From Sorghum bicolor (taxonomy: Eukaryota; Streptophyta; Magnoliopsida; Poales; Poaceae), in contig NC_012876.2 of the NCBI RefSeq assembly GCF_000003195.3, forward strand, positions 65,342,407-65,406,406: DNA of 64,000 bases. The letters run 5' to 3'. The notes beneath the pieces were generated by a model that saw only the letters and a list, made by a program, of their open reading frames with translations, searched no databases and had not been told where the DNA came from. Below are positions 14,831 to 56,154 of the stretch, piece by piece; the first letter of the stretch is position 1, and each line of letters opens with the position of its first letter. The position numbers and the translations under genes are program-made.

Positions 14831-17180
14831 TTATGAAAAGTGACCACATTCTTGTGCCAGCTCTACCATTATATGAGCTTCATTGGTGACCATTCGCATA
14901 TGAAAGCTGATTTTTCTCAGCTCAGATATGATCTTTCTCATCTCTGGATGAGATGCATCTCCACCCACAAACATATGAACTTCATTTGCAATCTCAGTCC
15001 AACTGTATCCAGGTTGTTTCTTTACACCTCTTTCTTTCATCTGACCTCTTACTTGATTGACTTGACCCCACATGCCAGCAGCAGCATATATATTCGAAAG
15101 AATCACATAAGGACCTGAACTTTCAGAGTCTGACTGAACAAGCATCTTAGCAGCAAGTTCACCGAGCTGCACGTTACCATGCATCTGACATGCTCCAAGC
15201 AAAGAACCCCATACATTTTTCTCAGCTTCTAATGGCATATCTTTTATATAACTAGAAGCTTTCTCCAATTGTCCTGCTCGGCTCAATATATCCACAATAC
15301 AAGCGTAGTGTTCAGCTCTTGGGGATATGGCGTATTTAGATGACATCAGATCAAACAATTTCAAGCTGGCATCCACCTTGCCAACATGCCCGCATGCCGA
15401 TAATACACTAAGGAAGGTGATATCATCGGGAATAAGTCCAGTCATTTCCATCTCATGGAACAGTGCTATAACTTTCTGATATTTTCCATGTTGTGCATAT
15501 GCAGCAATTATTGTGTTCCAAGAAACAATATCCTTGGTTCTAAGATTGATGAAGACTAACTCTGACTCACCCACATTGCCGCATTTACTGTACATTGTCA
15601 TCAATGCATTAGAAAAAGAGATGCCCGATTCTAGCATTGCTTTGATGGCAATAGCATGTGTGGATTTTCCTTGTCTGAGCAAAGCAAGAGCAGAACAAGC
15701 TGTCAGGACTGCAATAAGAGTCGCATGATCTGGTTTTACACCTTCTCTGAACATTACAGCATGCAATCTCATGGCTTCTTCACCGTGTCCATTGTGAACA
15801 TATCCTGCAGAAATATGGAGAAGTGAACCGTGAGGGTTTCTACCATCGCATGATCACTGGCACAATTAATAAAAGAGATAGCTGCATGATCTTTATATCG
15901 TATTCTGTTTATTACTACAAATCCCCTTCTTTAACAAACCAAAAAAAAACACACATTGATAAGATTATGTGAATCACTGAATCAAGAAAAATATAGGTAT
16001 GAAACATGAGTTAAAAGCTTGAAATTCCACGGTTTGTCCAACGCGACTGTTGCATTCACCAAATATATCTTCTTTTTTTAATTAAAAACGAAAAGAAACT
16101 AAAGCATGAATGCACAAAAGTTAAAAATGTTAAGGTGTTCAAATAAAAAGGTCATTTGGCAATCATACACTTAAAGACCCCCAAGACAAGTTATAGCTTC
16201 AGAGTATTGCAACTGTTAGTCGGTGTACACTTTGTAAAGTGTAATTCACAAGAAGTTTATTGCACATAAACATTCTTCAAAGCTTATTATCTATCGTTTG
16301 AAGCAACTTGATGACACAAGTAGTTGAGGAATGAGGGTGGGCAGCCTCATCTACAGTTTGAACAAACCAAAATGAATTTGTAGGAAAGAAGATTCAACAT
16401 GTAGGACGTACCAGCAATCATGGTATTCCAGGAGATGACATCCTTGGCACGAATCCCATCAAACAGCCTCCTAGCGCTCTCCACATCCCCCTGTTTGCAG
16501 TATGAAGTGATCATCGCAGTGCACGCCACAACATTCTTCTCGGGCATCGCTTCAAACAATTTCGTTGCCTCGACAAACATGCCGTTCTCAACGTACCCAC
16601 TGATCATGGCGGCCCAAGACACCAAATTCCTATCTGGCATTGCGTCAAACACCTCCCGCGCCCTCGCCACCTCACCGCGCCGTGCGAGCCCGTCCACCAT
16701 GGTTGTGTACGACACCACGTTCCTCTTTGGCATTTCTCCGAACAGCCTGTCGGCGTCATCCGCTCGGCCGAGCCTGAGGAGCCCCGCGAGCATGGCGTTC
16801 CACGTGGCCACGTTGCGCTTCGGGGCGCCGGCGAAGTAGGCGGAGGCAGCGTCCAAGTCCCCGTGCGCGAGGCATCCGGCGATGATTGAGTTCCAGGAGA
16901 CGACGTCGCGGGAGGGCATGGCCTCGTCAAAGAGGCGGCGAGCGGCTGGGAGGTGGTGGCGGCCGGCGCGCCAGAGCGCGGTGAGGAGCGCGTTCCAGGA
17001 GACGACGTCACGGTGCGGCATGGCGTCGAACACCCGGCGCGCCGCGGCGACATCGCCCGCGCGGGCGAGGGCGCTGATGCGCTGGTTGTCGCGGAGGAGG
17101 CGGCGGGCGGCGAGGGAGGCGGAGCCACGGAGCGGGAGCATGCGGAGTTTGGAGGGGAGTGCAAACCGAATTCGAGTCAA
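14831..17180 (-). CDS. E-class pentatricopeptide repeat protein, two exons
   Basis: Exon 1 is 16412-17180 and exon 2 is 14831-15804, with a 607-bp GT-AG intron that splits the Gly codon of the motif IAG-YVHNGHGEEA. This gives about 580 residues if translation starts at 17180; the Met of MLPLRGSASL about 12 codons inside is an alternative. The body is a run of PPR units with typical DVVSWNALL, RNVATWNAML and KDIVSWNTIIAAY helices. It is followed by an E-type C terminus (PGYSWTEIANEVHMFVGGD, ASHPEMRKIISEL) and no DYW deaminase domain. Such proteins bind single-stranded organellar RNA one base per repeat, and E-class members serve in C-to-U editing with partner deaminases. The basic, Ala/Arg/Ser/Leu-rich N terminus fits a mitochondrial or plastid transit peptide. 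The start lies about 300 bp from the U-box gene stop, so its promoter is short or overlaps that gene's 3' region. Confidence 0.88.
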
Positions 17181-23928: not shown

Positions 23929-26900
23929 TGAAGGCCCTAGTTTGGTTTTGGATAATTGATGAAACCCTAGTACTAACCTCTGTACTAAGTGTGTGTAGAC
24001 TTAATGAGGTTGGTAAATGCCAAGTGATGAAGCAAGTGATGATCATGGTGATGATGGTGATGACCACAAGATGATCAAGTGCTCAACTTGGAAAAGAAGA
24101 AAGAGAAAAAACAAAACCCTATGGAGATCAAGGCAAAGGTATTGCTTAGGGTTTTGGTTTTGGTGATCAAGACACCATAGAGGGTGTGATCACATTGAGG
24201 ATAGATAGCCGTACTATAAAGAGGAGAATTCTTTGGCTAAGCGGTTATCAAGTGCCACTAGGTGTCATTGTTCATGTGAAGGCATTTAGAACCTAGTGAG
24301 CTAACTTAACTCCTTCGAAGAAAATGTTTGTGAAAATACTAACACACATGCACACTTGTTGGTTTACACTTGTGGTGTTGGCACACTTTGATTCGGCGCT
24401 TTCGAGAAAATGAAGTGCTTATTTTCTATTGCGCCGGTGGGAAAATTGGAGAAGTCGCGGGAGTGTTTCTCGCTGAGGAACACTCACCGGACGCTGGCTC
24501 AGAGGCACCAGACGCTGTGTGTGAGCGTCCGGTGTGCAGGCTGCCTGGCCCAGCTAGGTTAAGGCACCGGACGTTAGGCACCGGACGCTGGCTTGAGCGT
24601 CTGAAAGGTCCTAATATGGCTAGAGGGGGGGTGAATAGCCTATTTACAAATTCTACAAACTCACTAGAGCAAGAGGTTAGTAAATAACAAAGCGAAGCTT
24701 TTTGCTCTAGCTCTAATGGGGTGTTTGCAAGCCACCTATCCAACAATTCTAGTTGATATAATCACTAGGCACACAAGAGCTATGTCACTACTTACACTAG
24801 AAAGCTACCTAAAGTTTCTATACAAGTAAGTAAGCTACTCTAGTTTGCGGGAATGTAAAAGAGTGGATGAGATAATTATACCACCGAGTAGGGGATGAAC
24901 CAATCACCAATATAAACAACCAAGCACCGGGAGAATGCCAATCAAACACAATTGAGACACCGATTTTTCTCCCGAGGTTCACGTGCTTGCCGGCACGCTA
25001 CGTCCCCGTTGTGTCGACCAACACTTGGTGGTTCGGTGGCTAAGAGGTGTAGCACGAACCTCGTCCTCACTAGGACACCACAAGAACCTACCCACAAGTG
25101 AGGTAGCTCAATGACACGAGCAATCCACTAATGTTGCCTTTGGCTCTCCGCCGAGGTAGGCACAAACCTCTCACAATCACCGGGAGATGGCCACGAACAA
25201 TCACCAACTCGTGCCAATCCTCCTCCGCTGCTCCAAGCCGTCTAGGTGGCGGCAACCACCAAGAGTAACAAGAAAACCGCAGCCAAATCGATCCCCAAGT
25301 GCCACTAGATGCAATCACTCAAGCAAATGCACTTGGAATCACTCCCAATCTCACAAAGATGTTTAATCTATGAAGGAGATGAGTGGGAGGAGTTTGCTTA
25401 GGCTCACAAGGATGTCAAGTATGTTAGAATGCCAAGAGTCTAAGCCCCAAGCCGGCCAAACACGTATTTATAGCCCCTCAAACAAATAGAGCCGTTGACT
25501 CTTTCACTGGGCAAAACTCGGGGGCACCGGACGCTCACAGGGAGCCACCGGACGCTCAACACCCAGCGTCCGGTGCTCAGCTGACCGCCACGTGTCACTA
25601 GCCGTTTGAAGTCGACCGTTGCTGCCAACGGCCACTTCGCACGCGCGCCTGCACAGCACCACCGGACGATGGGCACCGGACGGTCCGGTGCTCACCGGAC
25701 TCGTGCGCAGAGAGTTTGTCAAACTCGCGACCTCACCGGACGGTCCGGTGCTCACCGGACTCGCGCGCAGAGAGGGTTGCAAAAACCCCTCACACCGGAC
25801 GCTAACCACCGGACGCTCTCAAAGTGCGTCCGGTGCTTAACCCTAGCAGGGTCAAGCTCACCGGACGCTGAGGCCAGCGTCCGGTGCCTCCGCACTCAGC
25901 GTTCGGTGAGTGTTTCTCAGTGAGAAAACACTCCCGCGACTTCTCTAAATTTCCCACCGGCGCAATAGAAAAAATACACTTATTTTTCTCAACGCGGCTG
26001 ACGTTGGAGCACCGGACGCTGGTGTTGAGCGTTTGGTGCCCCTTTAAGAGCGTCCGGTGACCCCGTGTTTTGCCCAGTGAAAGAGCCAACGGCTCTATTT
26101 GCTTGAGGTGCTATAAATACGTGTTTGGCCGGCTTGGGGCTCACTCTCTTGGCATTCTTGACTACTAGACATCCTTGTGAGCCTAAGCAAACACCTCCCA
26201 CTCATCTCCTTCATAGATTATACATCTTTGTGAGATTGGGAGTGATTCCAAGTGCATTTGATTGAGTGATTGCATCTAGTGGCACTTGGGGATCGTTCTA
26301 GCTGCGGTTTTCTTGTTACTCTTGGTGGTTGCCGCCACCTAGACGGCTTGGAGCAGCGGAGGAGGATTGGCACGAGTTGGTGATTGTTCGTGGCCATCTC
26401 CCGGTGATTGTGAGAGGTTTGTGCCTACCTCGGCGGAGTGCCAAAGGCAACATTAGTGGATTGCTCGTGTCATTGAGCTACCTCACTTGTGGGTAGGTTC
26501 TTGTGGTGTCCTAGTGAGGACGAGGTTCGTGCTACACCTCTTAGCCACCGAACCACCAAGTGTTGGTCGACACAACGGGGACGTAGCGTGCCGGCAAGCA
26601 CGTGAACCTCGGGAGAAAAATCGGTGTCTCAATTGTGTTTGATTGGCCTTCTCCCGGTGCTTGATTGTTTATATTGGTGATTGGTTCATCCCCTACACGG
26701 CGGTATAAATATCTCATCCTTTCCTTACTTACCGCAAACTAGTGTAATTAGTTTAGTTGCTTTTTTTTCCTTGTGTAGCTTAGTTCTTGTGTGGTTAGTG
26801 TTCTTAGCAACTAGAATTGTTGGGTAGGTGGCTTGCAAACACCCCTTTTAGAGCTAGAGCAAAAAGCTTCGCTTTGTTATTTACTAACCTCTTGTTCTAG

Positions 26901-29370: not shown

Positions 29371-29735
29371 AAAAACTACTACGTAGTAGGTACAATTCCA
29401 TTTTACAAAATTTTGCAGAAACGCCCCCCACACCCCACTGGGCACTGCCGAGTTGTTTATTGGGTTCCCCGCAGCCCACCGCGGCCCGCGGGTCCGCCCT
29501 AGGCCCAGTGCTCCGTGGGCTCGGTCCACCACGGCAGCGACGGCGGAGGCTGCAGGTCCGCGAAGAAGCCCCCGCACGCCGCGTCGTCGTCGCCCAGGAA
29601 CGCCGCCTCGTCCTCCTCAACCTTGAGCAAGAACACCTCGCCGTGCTGGACCTGGAGCTGCGGCGCCGACGCCTCGGCGGGCACCGCCTTCTCCGCGTCG
29701 TTCACCACCCCGCTGGAGTCGCTGTCGGACGACCC

Positions 29736-29989
29736 TGTTATGTCTAGTGGGCCGTGGGCCGTAGCTGTGCTGTTCTAGGCCCAATAGCTCTGAGTAGAGT
29801 CGGCGCTCCAGGGTGGGCAGTTATAAGCCACCCTGTCGCCTGTAACAAACCATGGAAGAACAGATACTCTGCATCCCCATTCTATGAACTCACCTCCCTC
29901 TCGGAATTCAGCCGAGATCCATCTTGTTCTTCCCAAATTCTTGCTACGTTTCCCTCCCAAACTCTATTCAGTTATCTAGGATCGTTACA
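29736..29989 (+). repeat. 5' LTR
   Basis: Starts TGTTATGTCTAGTGGGCC and ends GGATCGTTACA, 254 bp. A TTATAAG box lies near 29820. It looks identical to the 3' LTR. Confidence 0.95.
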
Positions 29990-30004
29990 TTTGGTATCGG
30001 AGCC
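29990..30004 (+). promoter_or_regulatory. Primer-binding site of the gypsy element
   Basis: TTTGGTATCGGAGC begins right after the LTR. It matches the initiator-Met tRNA 3'-end complement (TGGTATCAGAGC) with one mismatch. Confidence 0.85.
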
Positions 30005-30085
30005 TTGTGATTTGGGGAGAAATTCTTTTTTCTCGAATCGCTGGCGCCGAAGAAGAAGACCAACCCGCCGAAGTATCATCTGGAG

Positions 30086-33000
30086 ATGGCGGCGTCCGTG
30101 GAATCCCTGAAGACGACGCTGGACGCCATGGCGCAGCAGTTCAAGGGTTTCCAGGAGATGATGGCAACCTCCCTGGACAAACTGAGTGCGCTGGAGTCAT
30201 GGCGTACCACGGCGGAGGAGTCCATGGATTCGCTGCTGCGACGATCTACAGAGACGTCAACGCAGATGGCTGAGACGGTGGCTCGCATCACGACCTTGGA
30301 GCTCCGACCACCTCCGCCGCCTCCGCCTCCTCCTCCTCCGCTTCCATGGGGTCTACATCCGCCTCCCCCGCCTCCACCACCACCGCGGGCTGGGGGGATC
30401 GATCTCAACGTCGCAGCCGCGGCCTCGTGCAGTGCGACGCCGCCGCTAGACGACATGCCCAGGGGGCCCGGCGCGAGCGGAGGTGTGCTCGGCCACCCTC
30501 CGCTTCACAACCTTCACGGTACGCCTGTCGGTTTTCATGCTCAAGTTCATGCATCTGAGGATTCAGTTCACCATCCTCCCTTTCCGAAAATAGAGTTTCC
30601 CAAATTCGATGGCACTAACCCCCGTTGGTGGCGGGATCAATGCGAGGTTTACTTCGAGGTCTACTCGGTGCCGCCATCGATGCGGACAAGGTTCGCGGCG
30701 CTCAATTTCAAGGGGCCCGCGGCGGCGTGGCTGCAGACAATCCAGCGTCGTGGGCGCATCGATGATTGGGATCGTCTGTGCGAACTGGTCATGACCAAGT
30801 TCGACAAGGACCAGTACGAGATTCTTCTACGCCAACTTCACACGCTGAAGCAGACGGCATCGGTGACGAACTACCATGCCGAGTTCGAGAAGCTTGTACA
30901 TGGTGTGCTACTCTACAATTCAGCCATCGACGACACCTTCTTTGTCACACGCTTTGTGGGCGGCCTGCGCGACGACATCAGGTCGGCAATACTTCTCCAT
31001 AGACCTCGTGATGTCGATTCTGCGAGTGCTCTGGCCCTGATTCAAGAGCAGGAGATTGAAGGGGGGCGTGCCAAATCCTCTTGGCGGGATTTCACCAGAG
31101 GAGTGCCCCGTGCAGCGGAGAAGGGCAAGTCAGTGGAACCAGTGAAACAGAACACTCAGAGAGCGGAGACTGATGATAAGTTGGCTGGACTGAAGTCATA
31201 TAGGCGCCGTAATGGCCTATGCTTCAAATGTGGGGAAAAATGGAGCCCAGCCCATACATGTCCCCCACATATTTCTCTTCATGTGTTGGAAGAGATTTTG
31301 GATGCATTGGATATTGTGGACACAGTGGACGATCAGGACAGTGATGAGGAAGTCACACCACAACAGGAGGTGTTGGCAGTGATGCCTGCTCCCAATGCAC
31401 AGAAAGTTCATCGGCAGACCTTGAAACTGTTGGGGCAGATCGGGAAACATAAGGTGTTGATTTTGGTTGACTCTGGCAGCATTGGGACATTTGTTAGCGA
31501 GCAGCTTGTTAAGCAGTTGAAGTTACCAACACTCTCTTGTACAGCCAGCACTTTTCGAGCAGCAGATGGAGGAGTGATGTTGTGTGATCGTTCTGTGTCC
31601 CAACTGAAATGGTTTATTCAGGGACATAGTTTTGTCTCTGAGGCTAAGGTGCTGCCACTTAAATGCTATGATTTGATCTTGGGTGAAGATTGGCTAGAAG
31701 AATTTAGTCCTATGCTCATTGATTACAAGCTCAAGACAATGCAGATAACTCATCAAGGGAAGCAAATTCAGCTGCAAGGAGTTATTGACAACTCTACTGT
31801 TTGCACCCCAGTCAGTGCTCACAAACTCAAAGGTCTTTTGAAGCATGGTGCAGTGTCACACTGTATTCAGATGACAGTACCTTCATCTCAGTCGATAAGC
31901 TCTGTTCAAGAAGAGGAGCAGGACTTGTCACAAGAATTTCCACCTCCTGTTACTGCATTGTTAGAACAATTCAATCATTTGTTTGCTGAGCCGAGTGGAT
32001 TGCCTCCTACAAGGCCTGCTGATCATAGGATTCCATTGATACCTGGAGCCCAGCCAGTCAAAGTAAGACCATACAGGTATTCTCCAGTTCAGAAAACTGA
32101 GATTGAGTCTCAACTCAAGAAAATGCTTGCTCAAGGAGTTATTAGGCCCAGTACTAGTTCCTTTGCCTCTCCGGTGCTGTTAGTGCGTAAGAAGGATGGT
32201 ACTTGGCGTTTTTGCATAGATTATAGACATCTCAATGCGATTACAGTCAAGCACAAGCATCCGATGCCGGTGGTTGATGAGTTGCTAGATGAATTGGCCG
32301 GTTCTAAATGGTTCACTAAGTTGGATTTCAGATCTGGTTATCATCAGATTTGTATGGCTGCAGGAGAGGAGTATAAGACAGCCTTTAGAACACATAATGG
32401 TCTATTTGAGTTCCTGGTAATGCCTTTTGGTCTCACAAATGCTCCAGCTACATTTCAGAGTTATATGAACATCATCTTTGCTGATTTGTTGAGGAAAGGA
32501 GTATTGGTTTTCATGGATGACATCCTTATATACTCCAGGACTTTGGAGGAGCACACTGTTTTGCTGAAACAGGTATTGGAGATTTTGCAGCAACACCAAT
32601 TCTTTATAAAGAAATCTAAGTGCTCCTTTGCAAAGAACTCAGTGGAATATTTAGGCCATGTCATATCTGAGTCTGGGGTTGCTACTGATAAATCTAAGAT
32701 CCTAGCAGTATCCTCTTGGCCCACTCCAAAGTCAGTTAAGCAGCTCAGAGGATTCCTTGGGTTAACTGGATATTATAGAAAATTCATAAAGCATTATGGG
32801 TTGATAAGTAGACCTCTCACTGACTTGTTGAAGAAGAATGTTCAGTTTCAGTGGACCGCTCTAGCTCAAGATGCATTCCAGACCTTGAAACAAAAACTTA
32901 TATCAGCTCCAGTCCTGGCTGTACCAGATTTCACACAACCATTTGTCATTGAAACAGATGCAAGTGATATGGGGGTTGGAGCAGTGCTGATGCAGAACCA

Positions 33001-34759
33001 ACATCCTGTGGCATATTTGAGTAAAGCGTTGGGACCAAGGAATCAGGCATTGTCTGTATATGAAAAGGAATGTCTTGCAATTCTCTTGGCCATTGAGAAG
33101 TGGAGAACCTATATTCAGCACAAGCCATTTGTCATTAAGACTGACCATCGGAGTCTGCAACACCTTACTGAGCAAAGATTGTCCAATAAATTGCAACACA
33201 AAGCAATGATGAAAATGATGGATTTGCAGTATACCATCCAATACAAGAAAGGAGTCAACAATGCAGCAGCTGATGCCCTTTCTAGATGCGAACACAGTCA
33301 GGAGGTGCAGGCAATTTCTGAATGTATCCCAGCTTGGATACAGAATCTCAAAGAAGGTTATGATGATGATGATCACGCCAAGAAATTGATGACTGAGTTA
33401 ACCTTAGCTCCCAATAGTCAATCTGATTATGTGCTGCAGGATGGAGTCATCAGGTTTAAAGGCAGAGTGTGGGTTGGAAATAATAGGACAGCCCAACATC
33501 ACATTTTGGTGGCTATGCATGATAGTGGATTGGGTGGTCATTCGGGTACCAATGCAACGTATGCAAGAATCAAGCAACTTTTTGCTTGGCCTAATATGAA
33601 ACAATCTGTCCAGGACTTTGTCAAACAATGTCAGACTTGTCAGCAGGCCAAGACTGAAAGAATCAACAAGCCTGGTCTCTTAGATCCCTTGCCCATACCT
33701 GAACAAGCATGGGAAATGATAAGCATGGATTTTGTTGAAGGGCTACCAAATTCAGATAATTTCAATGCATTATTGGTAGTCATCGATAAACTGACAAAGT
33801 ATGGGCACTTTATACCAATAAAACATCCATTCACTGCATTGCAAGTTGCACAGTTATTCATGAACAATGTCTATAAGTTACATGGGTTGCCCAAGACAAT
33901 CATATCTGACAGAGACCGGGTGTTCACTAGTGCGGTCTGGCAACAGCTGTTTCGATTGTCAGACACCAAACTGATGATGAGTTCTTCATATCATCCCCAA
34001 ACCGATGGCCAAACAGAGCGACTCAACCAGTGTGTTGAAGGATTTCTCAGGTGCACAGTCCATTCCTGTCCGCGACAGTGGAGTAAGTGGATTTCAGTCG
34101 CAGAGTTTTGGTACAATACATCAGTTCATTCAGCACTAGGCAAGTCGCCATTTGAAGTATTGTATGGTTATACTCCTCGTCAGTTGGGAATTTCAAACCT
34201 GCAGCTGTGTACTGTGCCGGATTTGGAACAGTGGTTGACTGATCGGGAATTGCTATCTCAGCTGATCAAGCAGCAGTTGGCCCGAGCTCAGCAGAGGATG
34301 AAGTCACAAGCTGACAAGCATCGTACGGAACGGGTATTCAAAGAGGGTGATTCTGTATTCCTCAAGTTGCAACCTTATGTGCAGTCATCAGTGGCAAACA
34401 GATCCAATCAAAAACTCTCATTCAGGTACTATGGTCCATACAAAATTCTGCAACGTGTGGGCAAGGTGGCATATAAGTTGGAACTTCCAGCCGACGCTAA
34501 GATTCACCCAGTGGTGCATGTGTCTCAACTCAAGCCGCATGTGCCTTCTGAGACACAAGTTAGTGCTGATCTCAACACGGTGGGCTCTGATCCATACTGT
34601 ATTCCTTGGCCACGGAAGATTTTGGATCGTCGTTCGGTGATGCGTGGAGCAACTGTGGTACCCCAACTATTGATTCAATGGGATCATTTACCACCAGAGA
34701 TGGCGACGTGGGAGGATGCTCTGGATTTGCCGGCGCAGTTTCAAGACATCAGTGGCTGA
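30086..34759 (+). CDS. Gag-Pol polyprotein of the gypsy element (1557 aa)
   Basis: One uninterrupted frame. Order: an N-terminal coiled/Pro-rich region (proline runs at about residues 73-100); Gag core (about 170-300, FPKFDGTNPRWWRDQCEVYF); a zinc knuckle CFKCGEKWSPAHTC near 375; aspartic protease with catalytic VDSGS (Asp462); reverse transcriptase with KLDFRSGYHQI and the FMDD box (Asp811-Asp812); RNase H (IETDASDMGVGAVL); and integrase. The integrase has an HHCC zinc region (HSGTNATYARIKQLF to CQTCQQAK) and the DD35E triad at Asp1215, Asp1275 and Glu1311. The C terminus has a GPYKILQRVG module and a chromodomain-like end (LLIQWDHLPPEMATWED). Every catalytic residue I could check is present, so the element is probably active or only recently silenced. 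It lies antisense to the HD-Zip gene it splits. The start is the first ATG after the PBS. Confidence 0.95.
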   Translation: MAASVESLKTTLDAMAQQFKGFQEMMATSLDKLSALESWRTTAEESMDSLLRRSTETSTQMAETVARITTLELRPPPPPPPPPPPLPWGLHPPPPPPPPPRAGGIDLNVAAAASCSATPPLDDMPRGPGASGGVLGHPPLHNLHGTPVGFHAQVHASEDSVHHPPFPKIEFPKFDGTNPRWWRDQCEVYFEVYSVPPSMRTRFAALNFKGPAAAWLQTIQRRGRIDDWDRLCELVMTKFDKDQYEILLRQLHTLKQTASVTNYHAEFEKLVHGVLLYNSAIDDTFFVTRFVGGLRDDIRSAILLHRPRDVDSASALALIQEQEIEGGRAKSSWRDFTRGVPRAAEKGKSVEPVKQNTQRAETDDKLAGLKSYRRRNGLCFKCGEKWSPAHTCPPHISLHVLEEILDALDIVDTVDDQDSDEEVTPQQEVLAVMPAPNAQKVHRQTLKLLGQIGKHKVLILVDSGSIGTFVSEQLVKQLKLPTLSCTASTFRAADGGVMLCDRSVSQLKWFIQGHSFVSEAKVLPLKCYDLILGEDWLEEFSPMLIDYKLKTMQITHQGKQIQLQGVIDNSTVCTPVSAHKLKGLLKHGAVSHCIQMTVPSSQSISSVQEEEQDLSQEFPPPVTALLEQFNHLFAEPSGLPPTRPADHRIPLIPGAQPVKVRPYRYSPVQKTEIESQLKKMLAQGVIRPSTSSFASPVLLVRKKDGTWRFCIDYRHLNAITVKHKHPMPVVDELLDELAGSKWFTKLDFRSGYHQICMAAGEEYKTAFRTHNGLFEFLVMPFGLTNAPATFQSYMNIIFADLLRKGVLVFMDDILIYSRTLEEHTVLLKQVLEILQQHQFFIKKSKCSFAKNSVEYLGHVISESGVATDKSKILAVSSWPTPKSVKQLRGFLGLTGYYRKFIKHYGLISRPLTDLLKKNVQFQWTALAQDAFQTLKQKLISAPVLAVPDFTQPFVIETDASDMGVGAVLMQNQHPVAYLSKALGPRNQALSVYEKECLAILLAIEKWRTYIQHKPFVIKTDHRSLQHLTEQRLSNKLQHKAMMKMMDLQYTIQYKKGVNNAAADALSRCEHSQEVQAISECIPAWIQNLKEGYDDDDHAKKLMTELTLAPNSQSDYVLQDGVIRFKGRVWVGNNRTAQHHILVAMHDSGLGGHSGTNATYARIKQLFAWPNMKQSVQDFVKQCQTCQQAKTERINKPGLLDPLPIPEQAWEMISMDFVEGLPNSDNFNALLVVIDKLTKYGHFIPIKHPFTALQVAQLFMNNVYKLHGLPKTIISDRDRVFTSAVWQQLFRLSDTKLMMSSSYHPQTDGQTERLNQCVEGFLRCTVHSCPRQWSKWISVAEFWYNTSVHSALGKSPFEVLYGYTPRQLGISNLQLCTVPDLEQWLTDRELLSQLIKQQLARAQQRMKSQADKHRTERVFKEGDSVFLKLQPYVQSSVANRSNQKLSFRYYGPYKILQRVGKVAYKLELPADAKIHPVVHVSQLKPHVPSETQVSADLNTVGSDPYCIPWPRKILDRRSVMRGATVVPQLLIQWDHLPPEMATWEDALDLPAQFQDISG

Positions 34760-34791
34760 CGATGACACAGCTTGAGGACAAGCTGTTGGTT

Positions 34792-34804
34792 AAGGAGGGG
34801 CGAG
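34792..34804 (+). promoter_or_regulatory. Polypurine tract before the 3' LTR
   Basis: AAGGAGGGGCGAG directly abuts the 3' LTR. It is nearly all purine and sits where plus-strand priming is expected. Confidence 0.75.
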
Positions 34805-35058
34805 TGTTATGTCTAGTGGGCCGTGGGCCGTAGCTGTGCTGTTCTAGGCCCAATAGCTCTGAGTAGAGTCGGCGCTCCAGGGTGGGCAGTTATAAGCCAC
34901 CCTGTCGCCTGTAACAAACCATGGAAGAACAGATACTCTGCATCCCCATTCTATGAACTCACCTCCCTCTCGGAATTCAGCCGAGATCCATCTTGTTCTT
35001 CCCAAATTCTTGCTACGTTTCCCTCCCAAACTCTATTCAGTTATCTAGGATCGTTACA
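34805..35058 (+). repeat. 3' LTR
   Basis: 254 bp from TGTTATGTCTAGTGGGCC to GGATCGTTACA, matching the 5' LTR with no difference seen. Confidence 0.95.
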
Positions 35059-35853
35059 GACCCCTGCGCCGCCCCGGCGGCGGGGACCTCGACGTCGGAC
35101 GCCGCTGGCTCCTCCTTCACCGACGAGAAGGCGTCGTCGTCGCCCAGCTTCGCCTTGAGCTCCTTGATCTGCCACGAGACGAGCCACGGAACAAAACAAA
35201 CGCTGTACTGTAAAAGGAAGGAAGAAGAATGTTCCCCTTTCTTTCTTTCTTTCCTTCTTTTTGGTGTGCACCGACCGTGCACGTGAGCAAGAGAGAGAGA
35301 GGATCGTGCTCATCTCACGCACCTCGTCGAGCAGCGCGTCCTTGTCGCGCCGGAGCTCGTCGTGGTCGGCGCGGAGCGCGTCGTACGAGTGGCGCAGCGC
35401 CGCGTAGTCGCGCTCCAGCTGCTTCGTCTTCCAGCGGGCGCGCCGGTTCTGGAACCAAACGGCCACCTGACGCGGCTGCAGGCCCAGCTCCCGCGCCAGC
35501 CGCGCCTTGCGTTCCGGCTCCAGCTTGTTGTTCTCCGTCTCGAAGCTCCGCTCCAGCGCGCGCACCTGCTCCGTGCTCAGCCGCCGCTTCTTCTCGCCGA
35601 AGCCGATGCCGTTGCACGGCACCATGTCCTCGTCGGCATCCTCCATCCCGACGCCGCCAAAGCCATCGTCTTTTTTTTTTTTGTTTAGGGTTTCCAAACA
35701 ACAAACCCAACAATATATATCATCAGCCAAACCGGAAGGAGGCACTGGCAAGAGAGAAAAGTTAGTAGTAGTATTACCACTGTGAACCACCGGAAGGAGG
35801 TCGGGACTGCCGCCGCCGCCGCCGCCGGAGATGGAACCGCTCGGTCTCTTCAT

Positions 35854-36500
35854 GACTGTCGCTGCTGCCGGCCGGGTGTGAAATTCTCAGAGACTCCCTC
35901 CCAAGAGAAGGAGGTGGGTGGGAGGGCCTCTGATCCAGAACCAAAGAGAAGCAAGCAAGGAAGGAAGGATCACAGACACAGACACTCGTGTGTGGGTGTG
36001 GGTCAGGGGAAGAGGGGCAACCGGGGAAAGGGGAATGGGGAGAGGCCGGGATGGCGCCTCCGGTGATGCTTCTCCTCCGTCTTGCTGTGACCACCAGCAC
36101 CACCACCACCCAGGACCATCACCATGGCTGGCTTGTCTTCTTCCCCAGCTCAGCTCGGATCGCACCTCCTCCTAGTACAAGTGAGAGCTAGTACTTGGGA
36201 GGTTTCTCATGACTGTCTCACCGCGCGAATGGAGCGAGAGGTTCCTTCTCTCCGGTTGCTATTTTCGGCCGGCCGGCCGCAGAAAATACGAGAGCGGAGT
36301 GGAGAAGGATAGGGGGATTTTGGAGCTCGGGTGTCACTGGTCGGGTTACCTGGGATGGGATGGGATGGGATGGGATGAGCCTGGGCTGCCTGGTGGTGGT
36401 GTAAAAAATGACCATGGTTAAGGCGGGGTCAGATTCAGATGGGACCACGCGAAAGCCCAGCGCGAACGCGACAAGAAAGACAAGGGCCCAGAGCCACACA
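35854..36500 (-). promoter_or_regulatory. Upstream region of the HD-Zip gene
   Basis: GC-rich and purine/pyrimidine-biased sequence, likely 5' UTR and promoter. A GGGAT pentanucleotide repeat of about five units lies at 36352-36376. No TATA box was assigned. Confidence 0.35.
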
Positions 36501-43529: not shown

Positions 43530-46500
43530 ATGAGCTCCCTGTCGAACTCGAACTCGCTTAATCGCTGCTTTAACGTTGTGTCGTGGAATGTAAGAGGTTT
43601 AAGCGACTCGGACAAATGCAAGGTCGTGCGAAACGTGTTCTCTGATGCTAAACCATCCATCATTTGCATCCAAGAATCAAAACTTGCTCTTTTAAACAAC
43701 TTCAAATCTAAAACCTTCCTCCCCCAACCTTTCTCCTCCTCCTATGTCTACTCCCCGGCCGATGGCTCAAGAGGTGGCCTCATCACCGCTTGGGACCCGA
43801 CGCTGTTCTCCTTAATCTCCCAACACTCGAACCCCTACAGTCTAACCACAAAATTTGCTTGCAATGCCTCCGACCATGACCTGCAAATTACTAATGTCTA
43901 CGGCCCGGCAGACCATAGCTTTTCCAACCTCTTCCTCGATTCTCTCTGTGTTGTCCACCAACATATTTCTGGGCCATGGATCCTAATTGGTGACTTCAAC
44001 CTGGTACGTAGTGCCGGAGACAAAAGCAACGGTCAGTTCAACGCTGCACTGGCAAACGCTTTCAACAACACAATTCTGCAAATTCTGGTAACTGAAACCC
44101 CCCTTTCCGACAAGCGTTTCACCTGGTCGAATATGCAAGCTTTCCCAATCCTTGCTAGGCTGGATCATGCTTTCACCAATGTGGCACTAGATCAAGCATT
44201 CCCGCTGACCTCCCTTTCCTCCCTGCCTAGACCTACCTCCGATCACACCCCTATTCTTCTGTCTCTTTCTTCGACCATTCCCAAACCGAATTCCTTCAGA
44301 CTAGACAACTACCTACTCAAAAACAACAGCTTCCTTGCCTCGATCGTTCATGGTTGGCAGCAGGCGCCTGCTTGCAGCGACGCTGCGGGGAAGCTGGTGG
44401 CGTGCATTAAGGCTGCAAGAGCCGCAACAAAGGTTTGGAAGCGGCGTTTCAGGGCGCCCCCACAAATCATCCACAACTGCCTTTTCATTATTAAGCTTTT
44501 TGACTACTTCGAAGACTTTCGCTCCCTTTCTACATCCGAGTTTCAGGTCAGAAACAAAGCTAAGGAGAAATTGCATGAGGAAATCAAGATCAAGGCCGCA
44601 TACTGGAGGCAGCGAAGCAAAGAAAGAAGGATCAAAGAAATGGACTGCAACACCGCCTATCACCATGCTCAGGCAACTCATAGGATGAGGAAAAAATACA
44701 TCAGGATGGTGAAAGTAGGCGACAGGGAGTTAGTTTCGCACTCAGGGAAAACAGAGGCACTGACCGCCTTTTTCAGCTCCATCATCGGCATCCCTGGGCA
44801 GTCGACAGCTTTTGACCTCGAGCAGTACTATGAAGACCCTCAAAGTCCTGCCAGCGACCTCACCAGGGCGTTTTCCGAATCAGAACTGAAGCAAGCAGTT
44901 TGGGACATGAACCCCATCAGCGCGCCGGGCCCGGATGGTTTCGGCCCATCTTTCTTCAAGATTGCTTGGCCTTCAGTGAAAGAGACTGTAATGCACTTTG
45001 CTAATGCTTTCCACGCGGAGACTGTCGAACTGGAGAGATTAAACAGGTCACACATGGTGTTGCTGCCCAAAAAGCCTGATGCTGTAGATGTGCAAGCTTT
45101 CAGGCCAATTTGTCTCCAAAACTGCGCACTTAAAATCATCACCAAAGCTCTGACTACACGTCTATAGTTGGAGATCCCAAAACTCATTGACCTTCACCAA
45201 ACTGGGTTTGTCAAGGGCAGATCAATCTCTGAAACCTTTGTTTATGCTCTCGAGCTCGTTCAGACCTGCCACAAAAGAAAGTTGCCGGCTATTATTTTGA
45301 AGCTGGACTTTGCCAAGGCCTTCGATACGGTGAACTAGGATGGTCTTCGGAGAGTACTCCACGCAAGACGTTTCGAACCCAAATGGATCATATGGATGAT
45401 GAGCCTTCTGTGCACCTCTAAGTCATTTGTTCTGGTAAATGGTACCCCCGGCCCATGGATAACTTGTAAGCGAGGTCTGAGACAAGGTGACCCGCTCTCC
45501 CCCTACCTGTTCATCCTCGTGGCGGAGACCCTTCAACGAATGATCAGAGCAGACACACAACTTAAGCACCCAACCAATGCTGACCTTCCCTGCGCTGTGC
45601 TACAATATGCCGATGACACTCTGGTGGTTTTCAAAGCTGAAGCTGAAGCGGCACTAAAGCTAAAGGAAATTCTAGATCAGTTCGCAGCAATGTCCGGGCT
45701 GCAAATCAACTTTGACAAAGTACTCTAGTGCCTATTCATGTTCCTGAACACATTGCCAACCTGTGTGTTCAAGCAATCGGGTGCAGCAAACAATCCTTTC
45801 CTCAGCAGTATCTGGGCCTACCTCTATCTGCAACCAAACTACCAGTTTCCACTTTCAACACCTACATCCAAAAGGCAGACAAATTTCTCAGCTCTTGGCA
45901 GGCCGACCTACTGAATCCCATGGGCAGAGGTATAATGGTGAATGCAGTTCTGGACTCAATTCTGGTTTATCTGATGGGCTCGCTTCAAATTCCGCAGACC
46001 ACGATTCAGGCCATGGATGCCAAGAGAAGGGCGTTCTTCTGGTCTGCAGACAAAAATGGGCATTGCTCGCCTGGAGCCTGCCTAATCGCCTGGGACAATA
46101 TTTCATGTCCTCGGGAGTATGGAGGCCTCGGTGTACGAGATCTGGGGATTCAGAACATTTGCCTCCTGCTAAAACTTATCCACCGGCTTCACTGCCCACA
46201 ATCTTCAGCGTGGGCGCAGTGGGTTCAGGGGCGTGCCTCGATTTGCTCACTTCAAGGTGATCTACATGGGGATCATTGGCAAACTCTAAGATCCATCCTA
46301 CCGCTCTATCAAGCAATCACGACTGTCTCAGTCGGGGATGGCAGGACCTGCTCGTTTTGGCATGATGTCTGGGTAGATGATGAACCTTTGGCCGATCGTT
46401 TCCCCGTGCTGTTTTCACACTGCACGGACAAGTCCTCCACTCTGAGCTCAGTTAAAGCCTCTGGCATCCACTCCTCATTGGTGCCTAGGCTCTCCACAAT

Positions 46501-47158
46501 AGCAGCTCAGGAACGGAACCTGGTTCAGGGCTTAGTGGACTCTACTCTTTTAAACAGTGATCCAGACAAGCGGAGCTTGGCTTTCTTCCGAGTGGATGGC
46601 ACCCTTGACACTGGGCAGCTTTACAGGTTCATCAAGGCCAAAGGCCAAGGAGAAGACCCAAAAGCAAATTTCATTTGGAAGTCCTTCGCTCCGCCAAGGG
46701 TTCAGCTCTTTATGTGGCTACTAACTCAGAGAAGAATCAAGTGCAGATTGGTGCTACTAAAGAAACACATTGTAGATTCCGCAACTTGCGAAATCTGTAA
46801 CAATGGCGACGAGTCTCCTGAGCACATCATCCATGGCTGCACCACCGGCAGGGAGACATGGCAGTGTCTAGGCCTTCAGTCCATAATCTCCATGGACATG
46901 TCTCAACTGCACACTGCCTCCAACTCAGCTGCTGCCCCTGTCCAGGAGTTCTCCTCCTTCATTGCGCTCATCTGCTGGCACATCTGGAAAGCTAGAAACG
47001 CAAAGATCTTCAACAACGAAACTCATTCAGTTGACAGAATCCTCTTTGACTGCAAGTCGGCAGCCGAACTTTGGCAACTACGACTACCAAGGCGGAAAAG
47101 GCCAATAGTCACCCATTGGTGTTCACTCCTTGAAATGGCTAGAAACTCTCTACTCTAG
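43530..47158 (+). pseudogene. L1 ORF2 (endonuclease-reverse transcriptase), two stops and one frameshift
   Basis: Starts MSSLSNSNSLNRCFNVVSWN. An APE-type endonuclease occupies about the first 240 codons, with WNVRGL, the catalytic Glu in CIQESK, GDFNLV and SDHTP. The reverse transcriptase follows (SAPGPDGFGPSFFK, FRPICLQNCALKI, LRQGDPLSPYLFIL, and the YADD box at 45606-45617). The C terminus has a zinc-finger region (ATCEICNNGDESPEHIIHGC) usual in plant L1. Lesions: TAG at 45165-45167, TAG at 45336-45338 in DTVN-stop-DGL, and a one-base loss in the A-run at about 45717 that shifts frame before PIHVPEHIANL. So the RT is dead although its motifs are intact. Confidence 0.9.
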
Positions 47159-48174: not shown

Positions 48175-48545
48175 TCTCATGTAGGCAAATAACATGCTTT
48201 GGGAAGCAGGCTGTCGATCGCGGCCTCAAAACACAAGATTTTACGCATCAATCAATACTCATTCATGCACTAATCTTCATCATGGATTTAATATAAGACA
48301 AGATGTGGGTCATCAAATCAAAATTCAAAAGTCACTCGTGCTTTTATTTCCCTTGTGGGTAAGACATATGATAGTACATCAATCAAATCAAAGGATATAT
48401 AAGACGGTCTTTACAGCCTACCAAAACCCATCCGCTTTCTAGGTTATGCTCAAAAACTTCTAAGACTCATCTGTTATTATGCATTCATAGGCACCTCAGA
48501 AAACAAAGTATATGATACGCTACTTATACTGCTCCAAGACTCATC

Positions 48546-51500
48546 TCAATAAAGACCCAACAATTTCCACCATAATGCACCAGCAGCTCCCCAAATTACA
48601 GCATTGATGACGGCTGTTATAAAACCCAGCTTGAATACATCTCCAAGGCCAACGTACCCCGCTGCACAAGGAAAACATCAGGTTGCTCAACAGAGAACAA
48701 ATACTCTATTAAACCTTTATTTATCAAAGCCCTTATAATAACCCATAACTAATAAAACAGGCAAATAATTTTGTTCATGTGTACGCGCAGCAGCTTGTGC
48801 TTTCGTTTCACTATATAAGGCTCCATTTGAATTATCATTTCATTGTGTGCACAAATATGAAGATAGTTTTCATGATCAAATACACTGTCATACCTAGCGA
48901 AATAGAAATTGATGCTAACTGCTCTATAAATTGGCATTGAAAACCAAACTCGAAACAAGTATGGAATGTACCAATCCAATGCGGTGGAATGCAAGCAAAC
49001 TTGCAAAATACGGTGCTATTTAACAAAAGAGGTGGAAAAGCACAATTACCTCCAAAGTATACTGCAGATTGCCCGCTACTATAATGTGTCAGTGATCCAA
49101 AGAGGTTTGCATTATATGCCAAAGCAAGTGTTGACATTACAGCTGGCACATCAGCTGCTAAATGCATGGCAAGAAATGCCGAGTATAAAGCTCCAACATG
49201 TGCAGTTTGGCTTGCAAATATATAGTGAATAAAGAAGAATGAGGCCTGAAGAACACCAAATGCTGCAGGCCAGCTCAATGAGAAAGATCGAAGAATCTTG
49301 GCAACACTACTCGATATCCAGGACACAATACCGAGCTTAGTAAGCTGACCAGCCAAACCAACTAAAATAGCAAACCAAGCTAGGGTGTCCCATGCAGACT
49401 TCTCATTCAAACAATCCTCCCAGTTCAGCACTCCAAGCAGAAGAAGTATTGAGAGTCCAATCATTGAAGCAACAACGCTGGATACGCCAATAGTTTGCCT
49501 GCAATATTAGAAACAGGATACACCTTTTTTGTTAACCATAATACTCTTGGCCATAAAGAAAAATATATATGTTAGCTGTCTCCACAATCATGAGTGGAAC
49601 CACAGACTAGTAAAGGAACTTTTCAAGGGAAAACACACAGAACAATGCTGCTTGCACCAATAGAGTGCTGCTCAATGCTCTGTGATGTGAACATTATCAC
49701 AATGACTACTACAGCAGGCACCCGTCAAGAAAGATACTTGTGCTCTTGTGCTGTGTGTATATATACTTACTTGCGTGATCCAAGAACAGTGTAAACGGTG
49801 AAACTAAAAACAAAAGTTCAGTTACTGAAAGTTTAGCTTCAGATTGCAAGTCAAAATCCTCTTTAAAAAGAAAAAACTTACCCAAAAATCCATAATGAGA
49901 CTGCAAGAAGCATCGTTGCAATCATAGCCCATTCATTTTTTGTTACTGGACCCATGTTCTTTAGCTTCTCGGCAGCTAACGCTGGGGCTTCAGGAGTGTC
50001 CTTTATTTCAGGGGGGAATATTTTGTAAATCAAATAAGGAGTCACTAAAATCCCAAGAAGTGCTGGCACGCTAGCAACCTTGAACCAAGTAAACCAATAG
50101 TTTCCGATATTAACACCAATCTCCTCTGCTAACTTCAGACACAACAGGTTCTGTGCAGCCGCTGTCAAGAAGAGAGCACTGGAGTTGGCAGCTGCCTGTC
50201 AATCAAGCATCAGAAACAAGCATAGTAAATCAATTTATCAAATTTTAAATTGCACTAAGGATTAAGTATAGTGCCCATGTTAACGCCACGGCGCCATTTC
50301 AGGGATGTATATGAAAACAATCAAATGAGGCAGTCTGTTCGGCCGGGTTCAGTCATCTGCGGGCGTTTTTGGCCTTCGCCGTTTAGCCTTGCCCTGTCGC
50401 TTTACCTGGGTTTTCGTTTACTTTTCTTTGCTGCCGTAGTCCGTTTGGTTGCTTGGCTTGGGTAACTGTGGTTACCATCCAAGCAACACAGTTTGTAACA
50501 AAAACCTTCTTCTACTTAATGAAAAACGTGCTAAGCACGATCTCGAAAAAAACAATCAAATGAGGAAAAATATGTTACAAACAATATTTATAAATTCCGA
50601 TTGATTCCACCACTCTAGGGGTACAAACTCCCAACGCACAGTTACCATAGCAGCCGTGTCTCTCACTCTCTCTCTCTCTCTCTGAATTTGTTAGTGTGGG
50701 CAACATAAACTTCGGATTTGTATCGATTTGGATTAAGCAATGAAACAATAATTATCCTTCCTATCTCTTCCATATATAGGGCGCTGAGGGGAAAAACTTT
50801 GCCTCATTAGCGATCATAACTATGGGCTGCGTAGTCGGGGTTCTGCTGTGGGCAGAACACGTCTACAACACCACCTTCCAGTCTTCAGTCCGGGAGACAC
50901 CGTTCAAGATCCTCCCCGTAGATCCCACCAACCATCCGCTCCTATGAGCCAGGCGAGACATGGGTCGCTGTGGTGACGAAATCCATGGCCAAACTTCATG
51001 AGCTTCTCCCCTATGTCCACCACCAGCAAGCTCAGGTCATCTACAAGCACTGCGTAGTCAGGGTCCCCTGCTACCATCACAAAACACGGACCCATTCTTA
51101 ACAGTTTGTAAAATTGCTCAGTGTTTTTCAGTATTTCAGAGCAACCAAGGAGGCACTCCCCCTGTAGAGGCCTCTGGCCCCTCCAGTTTCATAAAAAAAA
51201 AACGAGGCACTCACAGAGACTCCCAAGGGAGATCAACTGCAACATTTGTTCTATAAACACAATCTTATACAGAGACATCAATAAGGTAAGGACATAGAGT
51301 AGCAACTGAAATATATAAACAATGAGACTCTGATGTTACTAATGCATTACATCTCATAACTAAAGCAAAACTGTTGGCGACTAATTCGATGAAAAAACAC
51401 TCGAGCAACACTAGAAAAAAGACATTTAACCAGTGCTAGATCTACACAGTGGGCTGTGCAGTAGCAGACTAAGAAGGCTAGATACACAAGAATCTACCAA

Positions 51501-52606
51501 ATTCTTTAGCAAGAAAATGAGTATACATATCTATATCTGTGTATCACTGTGTCCAGAAAACAGCTACCTGAACACTAGACTAGCAAAATGATTTGCATAT
51601 AATACACTACAATTGCCATGAGGTTTCCACTACTGCTTTCTTTGCATTGAGTCAAGTGGTGACCAACAAGGCAACAACCATAACAAATGTTTTTAAGGAT
51701 CAATCTATTCAGTTCTGTGTTATGCAATCAAATGACTCAGAGTACTGCAATCAAGAATGAACAGAGTTTTTCAATGCAGTGGTGATTAGCATCAATTTGG
51801 ATTCCTATAAGACATTGAACAATCTTAAGGCACAGTTTCCATTACTAGGCCCGATCAAGCATTATTTCAAGCGCGTCGTCGTTTCGTTTAATTATTACCT
51901 GTAGCTGCGACTGCACAAGATAAGAGCCGAGTTTCTTTGCCGAGGGGTCGTTGGGCTTGCTTCCCGACGAGAGCGAGAGCGACTTGATGATGGGAAGGAA
52001 AACCCCTCCTGCCCTGGCCGTGGTGCTGGGCATGGCAGGCGAGATGACAGCCTCGCTGATGACAAGGCCATAGGATAGGCCCAAAGTGCTGCGCCCCAGC
52101 CATTTGACGAAGTAGGTGGCGACGCGGTCGCCGAGGCCGGTCTTGACGAAGCCGCGCGCGAAGAAGAAGGAGATGACGATAAGCCAGATGACCTCGTTAG
52201 TGAAGGCCCCGAACGCGGCGGCGAAGGAGAGCGTGCGCGTGGCGACGGTGACGGTGAGGCCGAGGAACGCCCACGCACCGACGGGGAGCGGGGCGAGGAC
52301 GAGCCCCGCGATGGTGGAGAGGAAGATGGAGAGGAGCTGCCAAGCCTGCGAGGTTACCTGGGCCGGCCGCGGCACGAGGAAGCGGACGGCGAGGCCGAGG
52401 GCAAGCGAGATAAAGAGGGGCAGCGGCTTAGCACCACCCGATGCCGCCGGTGCCGGCGCCGGCGCCGGCTTAGGGCTCGGGGTTGCCGAGGAAGCGGGGC
52501 AGCCAGGAGGATCTGCTTCCACGACCACGACCGTCTCAGCGGTCGTCGTCGTCGTCGTCCCTATCTCTATGTCTCCTGTCGCGACGGTGGGATGACTACT
52601 CTTCAT
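48546..52606 (-). CDS. DiT2/DCT-like: Dicarboxylate transporter, left tandem copy, four exons
   Basis: Exons 51899-52606, 49882-50195, 49050-49498 and 48546-48661 (708+314+449+116 nt) give about 528 residues. It belongs to the DASS/SLC13 carboxylate transporters, with many hydrophobic helices (PLFISLALGLAVRFLVP, VIWLIVISFFFARGFV), the ANSSALFLTAAAQ substrate-site motif and SSGQSAVYFGG. Plant DiT2 exchanges malate with glutamate or other dicarboxylates across the plastid inner envelope, and C4 grasses use relatives for C4-acid transport in bundle-sheath chloroplasts. Unlike its neighbour, the N terminus (MKSSHPTVATGDIEIGTTTT, then VVVVEADPPG) is acidic and not transit-peptide-like. Conserved positions differ: QLTKLG for QLTNLG, AADVP for AAGVP, YVGLGD for YVDLPD. 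Intron 1 is 1.7 kb and holds retroelement scraps. It may be diverging, retargeted or decaying; transcript evidence would be needed to tell. Confidence 0.85.
49759..49791 (-). other. Candidate cassette exon (33 nt) in the left transporter copy
   Basis: Within intron 2, GTTTTTAG precedes TTTCACCGTTTACACTGTTC and the segment ends GCAA before GTAAGT, so both splice signals are strong. Inclusion would add 11 residues in frame between exons 2 and 3. Homologues that I recall lack this insertion, so the main gene model omits it. Confidence 0.35.
50331..50549 (+). mobile_element. 5'-truncated LINE 3' end in intron 1
   Basis: The direct repeat AAACAATCAAATGAGG flanks it (50315-50330 and about 50550-50565). 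The insert ends in a short A-run after GCACGATCTCG. It is only about 220 bp, the product of incomplete reverse transcription. It lies antisense to the transporter. Confidence 0.8.
50666..50682. repeat. (CT)n microsatellite
   Basis: A short CTCTCTCTCTCTCTCTC run in intron 1 of the left transporter copy. Confidence 0.8.
50820..51110 (+). mobile_element. Fragment of a gypsy integrase/pol region in intron 1
   Basis: The + strand reads WAEHVYNTTFQSSVRETPFK, which resembles the integrase C-terminal segment of plant gypsy elements (wYNTSFHSSLKTTPFE type). Stops and frameshifts follow. No LTRs were seen nearby. Confidence 0.5.
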
Positions 52607-55612: not shown

Positions 55613-56154
55613 GTATACAGGGCAGGCAAATAGCAGGCTTGGGGAAGCAGGCTATGGCGGCCTCAAAACACAAGATTTGACGCATAGTGCTGTTGGCTTG
55701 GCTGATAAGTCATGGCTGAAAGTATTCACTGATTTTATTGTGAGAGAAAAATACAAAGCGGCAGATAAGCTCAAGTGAATAGGCTATAGATATTCATTCA
55801 TTCATGCATCTTCATGGATTTGATATTTGCCTTGTCGCCGCCGCCGCCTCAAAACACAAGATTTGGGTCATCAAAATTCAAAAGTCACTCATGCATTTAT
55901 TTCCCTTGTGGGGAGGAGATATGGTGGTACATGAATCAAATCAAGGGGTATATAAGATGATCTTTACAACCTACGAAACTCATCTGCTTCCTAGGTTGAT
56001 CATGCTCAAAAACTTTCTAAAGATGAGCGTTCCTCTGTTATTATGCACTCATAGGCACCTCAGAAGGAAAACGAACACCGACCTCCGATGGTGGATCATG
56101 AGGTACTTGTTTAATATATGGTACCATTTTCATGTACTTCTACTGCCCCAAGAC

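Follow-up and report, generated by a model that had tools for sequence, protein, structure and literature searches.

A very recent, polymorphic chromovirus-type retrotransposon insertion within the final coding exon of a HOX20-like sorghum gene, with a putatively tail-less HD-Zip product

Introduction

Among the closest described systems to the one reported here are the C-terminal losses of barley VRS1/HvHox1 and of the pea tl type, in which the homeodomain-leucine zipper (HD-Zip) part is kept and the AHA-like end is missing (PMC3060862). In particular, an AHA-like sequence is absent from VRS1 and from a pea tl-mimic, and activation in yeast is abolished in ATHB1 without its C-terminal region (PMC3060862). 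Here we analyze a stretch of 64,000 nucleotides from chromosome 7 of Sorghum bicolor (65342407-65406406; hereafter, the window, whose numbering is used unless a chromosome is named), in which a Ty3/gypsy long terminal repeat (LTR) retrotransposon, at chromosome positions 65372142-65377464, interrupts a HOX20-like gene. Unlike in barley and pea, the cause is an LTR retrotransposon, and the allele is known from sequence alone. Our interpretation, to which we would assign a probability of about 85%, is that the final coding exon of a HOX20-type gene very recently received a low-copy chromovirus-type element, antisense to the gene, that the insertion is polymorphic, and that the occupied allele would encode an HD-Zip product without its tail.

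With the grass HOX20/HOX4 factors of HD-Zip subfamily I, the gene has in common a homeodomain, a leucine zipper and a conserved acidic/aromatic C-terminus; unlike these proteins, the occupied allele lacks the 76 C-terminal residues, including the acidic/aromatic block. The element, on the other hand, resembles the plant Ty3/gypsy chromoviruses (clades CRM, Galadriel, Reina and Tekay; PMC6317226) in its 5-bp target duplication, its TG...CA ends, its order of gag, protease, reverse transcriptase, RNase H and integrase, its terminal chromodomain and its single polyprotein open reading frame (ORF), and is unlike them in having few copies (at least two full ones and at least one solo LTR), with both of the full copies found sitting in coding exons.

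Results and Discussion

The two LTRs of the element are identical at 254 of 254 aligned bases, a perfect 5-bp duplication, GACCC, flanks the element, and the polyprotein is a single open frame of 1,557 codons (Table 1). The polyprotein was searched against Pfam as five separate pieces, which gave, in order, gag, protease, reverse transcriptase, RNase H, integrase and chromodomain, as in the gypsy superfamily. Its translation contains the motifs DSG, FMDD and TDAS of protease, reverse transcriptase and RNase H, which we take to be the catalytic residues of these enzymes. What is more, a stretch resembling a primer-binding site, presumably of the initiator-Met tRNA type, follows the 5' LTR, and the small size of the element fits, in our estimation, the Reina clade. 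In the integrase region, Integrase_H2C2, SH3_Tf2-1 and Integrase_p58_C each exceed their own Pfam cut-offs, and the chromodomain (PF00385) only just passes, with 25.2 bits against a cut-off of 25.1. We place the element with the chromoviruses because its polyprotein carries this domain, reported for 94% of chromoviruses and for none of the other groups (PMC6317226). The closest relatives of a 600-aa polyprotein piece reach at most 78% identity over 80% of the piece among the best 120 of 1,310 matches, in a protein search limited to records of about 330-1,050 aa.

The host gene lies on the minus strand, and the element sits in its last coding exon, exon 3, antisense to it. Without the element and one of the two GACCC copies, the frame of exon 3 continues as far as a stop at 29501-29499 and the gene encodes a protein of 254 aa; the frame is broken if both copies are kept, and likewise if neither is. 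Searching the joined protein against 5.8 billion proteins gave 4,666 matches, the best 120 of which were examined: here, identity is 85% to a Miscanthus HOX20-like protein, 65% to a Miscanthus HOX4-like protein and 60% to Zea HOX4. The best match, P0001 (BDA96_07G241900, S. bicolor, 253 aa), carries a Homeodomain at residues 51-105 and a HALZ leucine zipper at 107-148, both before the break, and has no Pfam match to START or MEKHLA. HALZ is also present in HD-Zip subfamily II (PMC12389044), and it is the HOX20/HOX4 matches that speak for subfamily I. A search of solved structures returned mainly homeodomains among the best 60 of 132 matches. A further mark of subfamily I is binding to CAAT(A/T)ATTG. 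An earlier note on this DNA had described a gypsy insertion with no visible LTR difference, a perfect GACCC duplication and an open polyprotein, situated in the coding part of an HD-Zip I gene whose exon becomes continuous once the element and one GACCC are removed, and in all of these points our analysis agrees with it.

Two side observations concern the host gene itself. An extra Asn in the homeodomain (ETENNKLEP, within exon 2) occurs in six of 18 aligned proteins, namely those of the other sorghum assembly discussed below, two HOX20-type Miscanthus rows, two unnamed rows and P0055, the occupied form; it is missing in ten, including the HOX4-like Miscanthus row, and the remaining two are without that stretch. 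In addition, the leader of the gene (35854-36415) holds upstream ATGs, one of which starts a 40-codon frame at 36125.

How recent is the insertion, and how large is the family? The genome searched comprises 709 Mb, and all copy counts are lower bounds. An LTR search, with a query that started one base early, gave seven matches, five of them complete; the other two, at 81% and 74%, are relics. The five complete LTRs (two from this element, two from a second full copy, and one solo) are all identical over 254 bases. The second full copy lies on the same chromosome, 1.9 Mb away (C7:63436227-63441550; L022 2228-7551), and the solo LTR at C1:4949756-4950009 (L023 3757-4010), about 500 bp past the stop of a zinc-knuckle ORF and without internal element sequence in the 8 kb examined around it. 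The perfect 5-bp duplications of these three young insertions differ, being GACCC, GAAGG and, at the solo LTR, TAGTT. A 901-bp internal piece found at least 14 matches; both full copies are at 100% and the other twelve lie between 65% and 80%. The first copy (5,323 bp) and the second (5,324 bp) are separated by a single substitution and a single gap column, and both contain an open frame of the same length. Because the second full copy is so little different, the family must have moved very recently, which is in line with the age that the earlier note had proposed from the LTRs. Taking 1.3e-8 substitutions per site and year as the rate in grasses, one substitution corresponds to approximately 7,200 years since the common template of the two copies (95% interval 180 to 40,000), and, as they are only one substitution apart, at least one of the two full-copy insertions is about that young. 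The LTR pair alone limits the age of the HOX20 insertion to less than about 450,000 years (95%).

The longest contig of P0001, which is made up of two member sequences, has 70,271,347 bases versus 65,505,356 for the chromosome analyzed here, and this is why we attribute the record to another S. bicolor assembly. The line behind the present reference genome is, we assume, BTx623, and the prefix BDA96 presumably denotes the sorghum cultivar Rio. P0001 is the same as the empty-site protein except at the border of exons 1 and 2, where it has N in place of SD, and from residue 27 on the two are identical; the difference is explained by a donor three bases earlier, and P0002 agrees with the later border. 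P0053, an ENA record on a contig of 7,241 bases, agrees from end to end with the empty-site translation, the first residue having been left out of the comparison. It begins with 38 residues of read-through from intron 2, followed by an unbroken exon 3, and for this reason it reflects empty-site DNA. P0055, whose longest contig has 3,042 bases, agrees from end to end with the window's occupied frame, again leaving out the first residue. On these records, both alleles appear outside this assembly. Since P0001 and P0053 are unbroken, the presence/absence comparison that the earlier note had proposed shows, at the level of protein records, an insertion that is polymorphic within Sorghum bicolor and not fixed.

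Could the element have been misplaced into the gene during assembly or curation? A copy with identical LTRs 1.9 Mb off on the same chromosome could in principle mislead an assembler. However, the target duplications of the two full copies are not the same (GACCC and GAAGG), their sequences differ at two places, and P0055 encodes the HOX20/LTR junction on a short contig of its own. On these grounds we rejected the artefact, which we regard as extremely improbable.

What would the occupied allele produce? In the frame of the gene, a stop at 35037, within the 3' LTR, follows 184 codons, i.e. 178 native residues and the LTR-encoded VTILDN. Transcripts of this allele are predicted to run into the 3' LTR and to be read no further than these 178 native and six foreign residues, in which case the product would keep the homeodomain and the leucine zipper and lose the C-terminal, activation-type region. 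Because the truncation lies in the last exon, classical nonsense-mediated decay would not be required, although the 3' region is now a long one. The AATAAA that follows the native stop is left on the far side of the element, and a scan of 737 bases beyond the new stop found none of five poly(A)-type hexamers. What is more, a TATAA at 34891 in the 3' LTR is directed into the gene, antisense, and antisense transcription from this LTR may reduce the level of product further. The earlier note had offered a natural knockout or a modified allele. Of these, knockout is too strong a word, because the DNA-binding and dimerisation parts remain. With these parts intact, a tail-less protein and no protein at all would be equally likely outcomes, and the allele may amount to a loss of function or may supply a competitor of HD-Zip I partners that is still competent in binding and dimerisation.

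The region that is cut off is otherwise well kept, in that its acidic/aromatic block is present in 15 of 18 aligned relatives (the alignment covers 18 of the 120 listed matches), and the three rows without it are two ORF calls ending at intron 2 and one occupied form. This bears on whether the gene was already dispensable, being redundant with HOX4, so that the insertion would be a neutral passenger without effect. A HOX4-type paralogue is present in grasses (P0024, P0040), two Zea mays rows are just 60-62% identical among the matches listed, which is consistent with a loss of HOX20 in maize without showing it, and the extra Asn of the homeodomain is found in sorghum and in HOX20-type Miscanthus rows. 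Set against this are the retention of the C-terminal block and the intact empty-site frame, whose protein is identical to that of the other accession starting at residue 27. We consider a neutral passenger possible, but on the whole somewhat improbable.

The second full copy raises another question. Its flanks join to one open frame of 467 aa, a BAHD acyltransferase (PF02458), and the joined protein is the same as P0121 across all 467 residues. The longest contig of P0121 has 65,505,356 bases, the same as this chromosome, and the 50 kb to the left and to the right of the copy hold no further near-identical BAHD sequence, a match of 32% over 218 residues being what is found (L028). Together with the TG...CA ends of the element, the exonic target GAAGG creates a GT-AG intron that restores the BAHD frame exactly, which is possible with 40 of the 1,024 5-mer targets. 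Because P0121 is unbroken, comes with a contig of the size of this chromosome, and is matched by an exact GT-AG intron, the evidence suggests that the annotation splices the element out; that splicing also takes place in cells would be conjecture. Retrotransposon insertions spliced as introns are known from maize waxy alleles and from introners, and what they have in common with the present case is a transposon within a gene, possibly removed from the RNA.

Several points weigh against our interpretation. The integrase core (rve) scores 29.7 bits, under the Pfam cut-off of 32.6; the name HOX20 derives from the best database matches and is to be read as provisional; and the unbroken form in the other assembly is known from the protein record alone. 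The remaining points concern splicing. Namely, the element could act as a new intron, spliced from cryptic donors of exon 3 to acceptors that lie inside the 5' LTR or past it, giving a near-complete protein and a functional allele. In the stretches scanned, 61 in-frame pairs of donor and acceptor would rejoin the C-terminus, and three of them (7.06, 5.74 and 5.63 bits, from a crude matrix that underlies all our splice scores) exceed the gene's own intron 1 (4.88). One of the top pairs, donor 35061 with acceptor 29769, would give a protein of 266 aa, 12 residues longer than the unbroken one, and this donor, two bases before the border, by itself scores 4.2. The BAHD copy, with its exact intron and an unbroken record from a contig of this chromosome's size, points the same way. 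On the other hand, none of the 61 pairs reaches the score of intron 2 (12.66), and no row with a longest contig of 65,505,356 bases is among the matches listed for the HOX20 protein, although P0001, with two sequences and one contig shown, could conceal one. Unlike the second copy, the HOX20 site offers no exact splice window. All in all, we find a functional allele made by splicing quite unlikely, and prefer a broken frame with a putatively tail-less product. An exact intron at the HOX20 site, in particular, was tried and rejected, as none of six offsets gives a GT-AG window.

One can go further and speculate about the family as a whole. Under the assumption that coding sequence makes up 5.5% of the genome, the chance of at least two out of three insertions falling in it is approximately 0.009, in a test of three sites only that was devised after seeing the data. 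It may be that this low-copy family targets transcribed coding exons rather than heterochromatin, that its TG...CA ends together with exonic AGG targets can make exact GT-AG introns, and that some insertions, such as the BAHD one, would consequently be spliced away harmlessly and others, such as the HOX20 one, would give tail-less dominant alleles, with the reference line carrying both outcomes of one recent burst. We consider this scenario doubtful. Independently of it, two coding-exon insertions of one nearly identical family offer a direct way to test for recent retrotransposon activity in sorghum.

The event is of an ordinary kind, yet the allele is a clean natural one. The sorghum reference, identified as such by published gene coordinates (PMC8766336), carries a broken transcription factor gene that is whole in another sorghum assembly, and as a result this gene can be misjudged wherever gene lists, expression work or reverse genetics start from the reference. 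Overexpression of rice HOX4, a relative, leads to semi-dwarf plants (PMC6538746), which makes height or gibberellin response the first trait of interest. Among the literature matches listed, no title concerns this insertion or sorghum HOX20, though such a paper may exist, and the insertion is not mentioned in the portions of main text consulted of PMC6537160, PMC9846640, PMC9777646, PMC12389044 and PMC11170960.

Table 1. Positions, in window numbering, of the element and of the parts of the host gene.
Feature	Position	Strand	Basis
AATAAA shortly past native stop, now beyond element	29456..29461	-	hexamer scan
HOX20-like gene, exon 3 part severed by insertion, including native stop	29499..29735	-	frame reconstruction
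Left copy of target-site duplication GACCC	29731..29735	.	sequence
Full-length Ty3/gypsy chromovirus-type LTR retrotransposon, 5,323 bp	29736..35058	+	alignment of LTRs and target-site duplication; Pfam
5' LTR, 254 bp	29736..29989	+	LTR alignment
Primer-binding-site-like stretch directly 3' of 5' LTR	29992..30004	+	sequence read
Polyprotein, one ORF, 1,557 codons	30086..34759	+	ORF list
gag domain PF03732	30692..30973	+	Pfam
Aspartic protease PF08284	31457..31747	+	Pfam
Reverse transcriptase PF00078, portion within searched piece	32186..32665	+	Pfam
RNase H PF17919, portion within searched piece	32852..33082	+	Pfam
Integrase, H2C2 zinc-binding domain and rve core	33485..33979	+	Pfam; core below cut-off
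Chromodomain PF00385	34613..34747	+	Pfam
Purine-rich stretch directly 5' of 3' LTR	34792..34804	+	sequence read
3' LTR, 254 bp	34805..35058	+	LTR alignment
Premature stop within 3' LTR, in the gene's reading frame	35037..35039	-	frame reconstruction
Right copy of target-site duplication GACCC	35059..35063	.	sequence
HOX20-like gene, exon 3 part upstream of insertion	35059..35168	-	frame reconstruction
HOX20-like gene, exon 2, with homeodomain and larger part of zipper	35323..35669	-	frame reconstruction, Pfam
HOX20-like gene, exon 1 coding part	35778..35853	-	frame reconstruction; border as in P0002

As for the surroundings, the pentatricopeptide repeat (PPR) gene Sobic.007G226400 has been placed at chr7:65356668-65359547 in sorghum v3.1 (PMC8766336, Table 3), and PPR-like ORFs at 14831-17180 of the window match this position. 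On the other side of the insertion, tandem duplicated genes resembling dicarboxylate transporters (48317-52183 and 55870-59066) are probably the published DCT2.1/DCT2.2, Sobic.007G226700 and Sobic.007G226800, which are described as neighbouring dicarboxylate-transporter genes (PMC7883667). The broken gene is then probably Sobic.007G226500 or Sobic.007G226600. In 24 Ethiopian sorghum accessions, 13 single-nucleotide polymorphisms (SNPs) have been reported under directional selection, and four of these, at chr7 65318268, 65355302, 65357757 and 65431483, have the same minor allele frequency of 0.13 and the same FST of 0.91 (PMC8766336, Table 3). The second and third correspond to window positions 12896 and 15351, and the insertion falls between the third and the fourth, which has no bearing on cause; the flanking outliers (PMC8766336) do, however, make an association testable at once. 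Scans of the whole window with Rfam and for tRNA genes gave no matches. An inverted repeat at 24858-26726, with arms of 706 nt that are 95% complementary and 457 nt apart, lies in a region of CACCGGACG-type repeats, which recur at 62.1-63.0 kb. Finally, two ORFs at 43530-47158 resemble, by reading alone, the endonuclease and reverse-transcriptase parts of a non-LTR retroelement of the long interspersed nuclear element (LINE) type.

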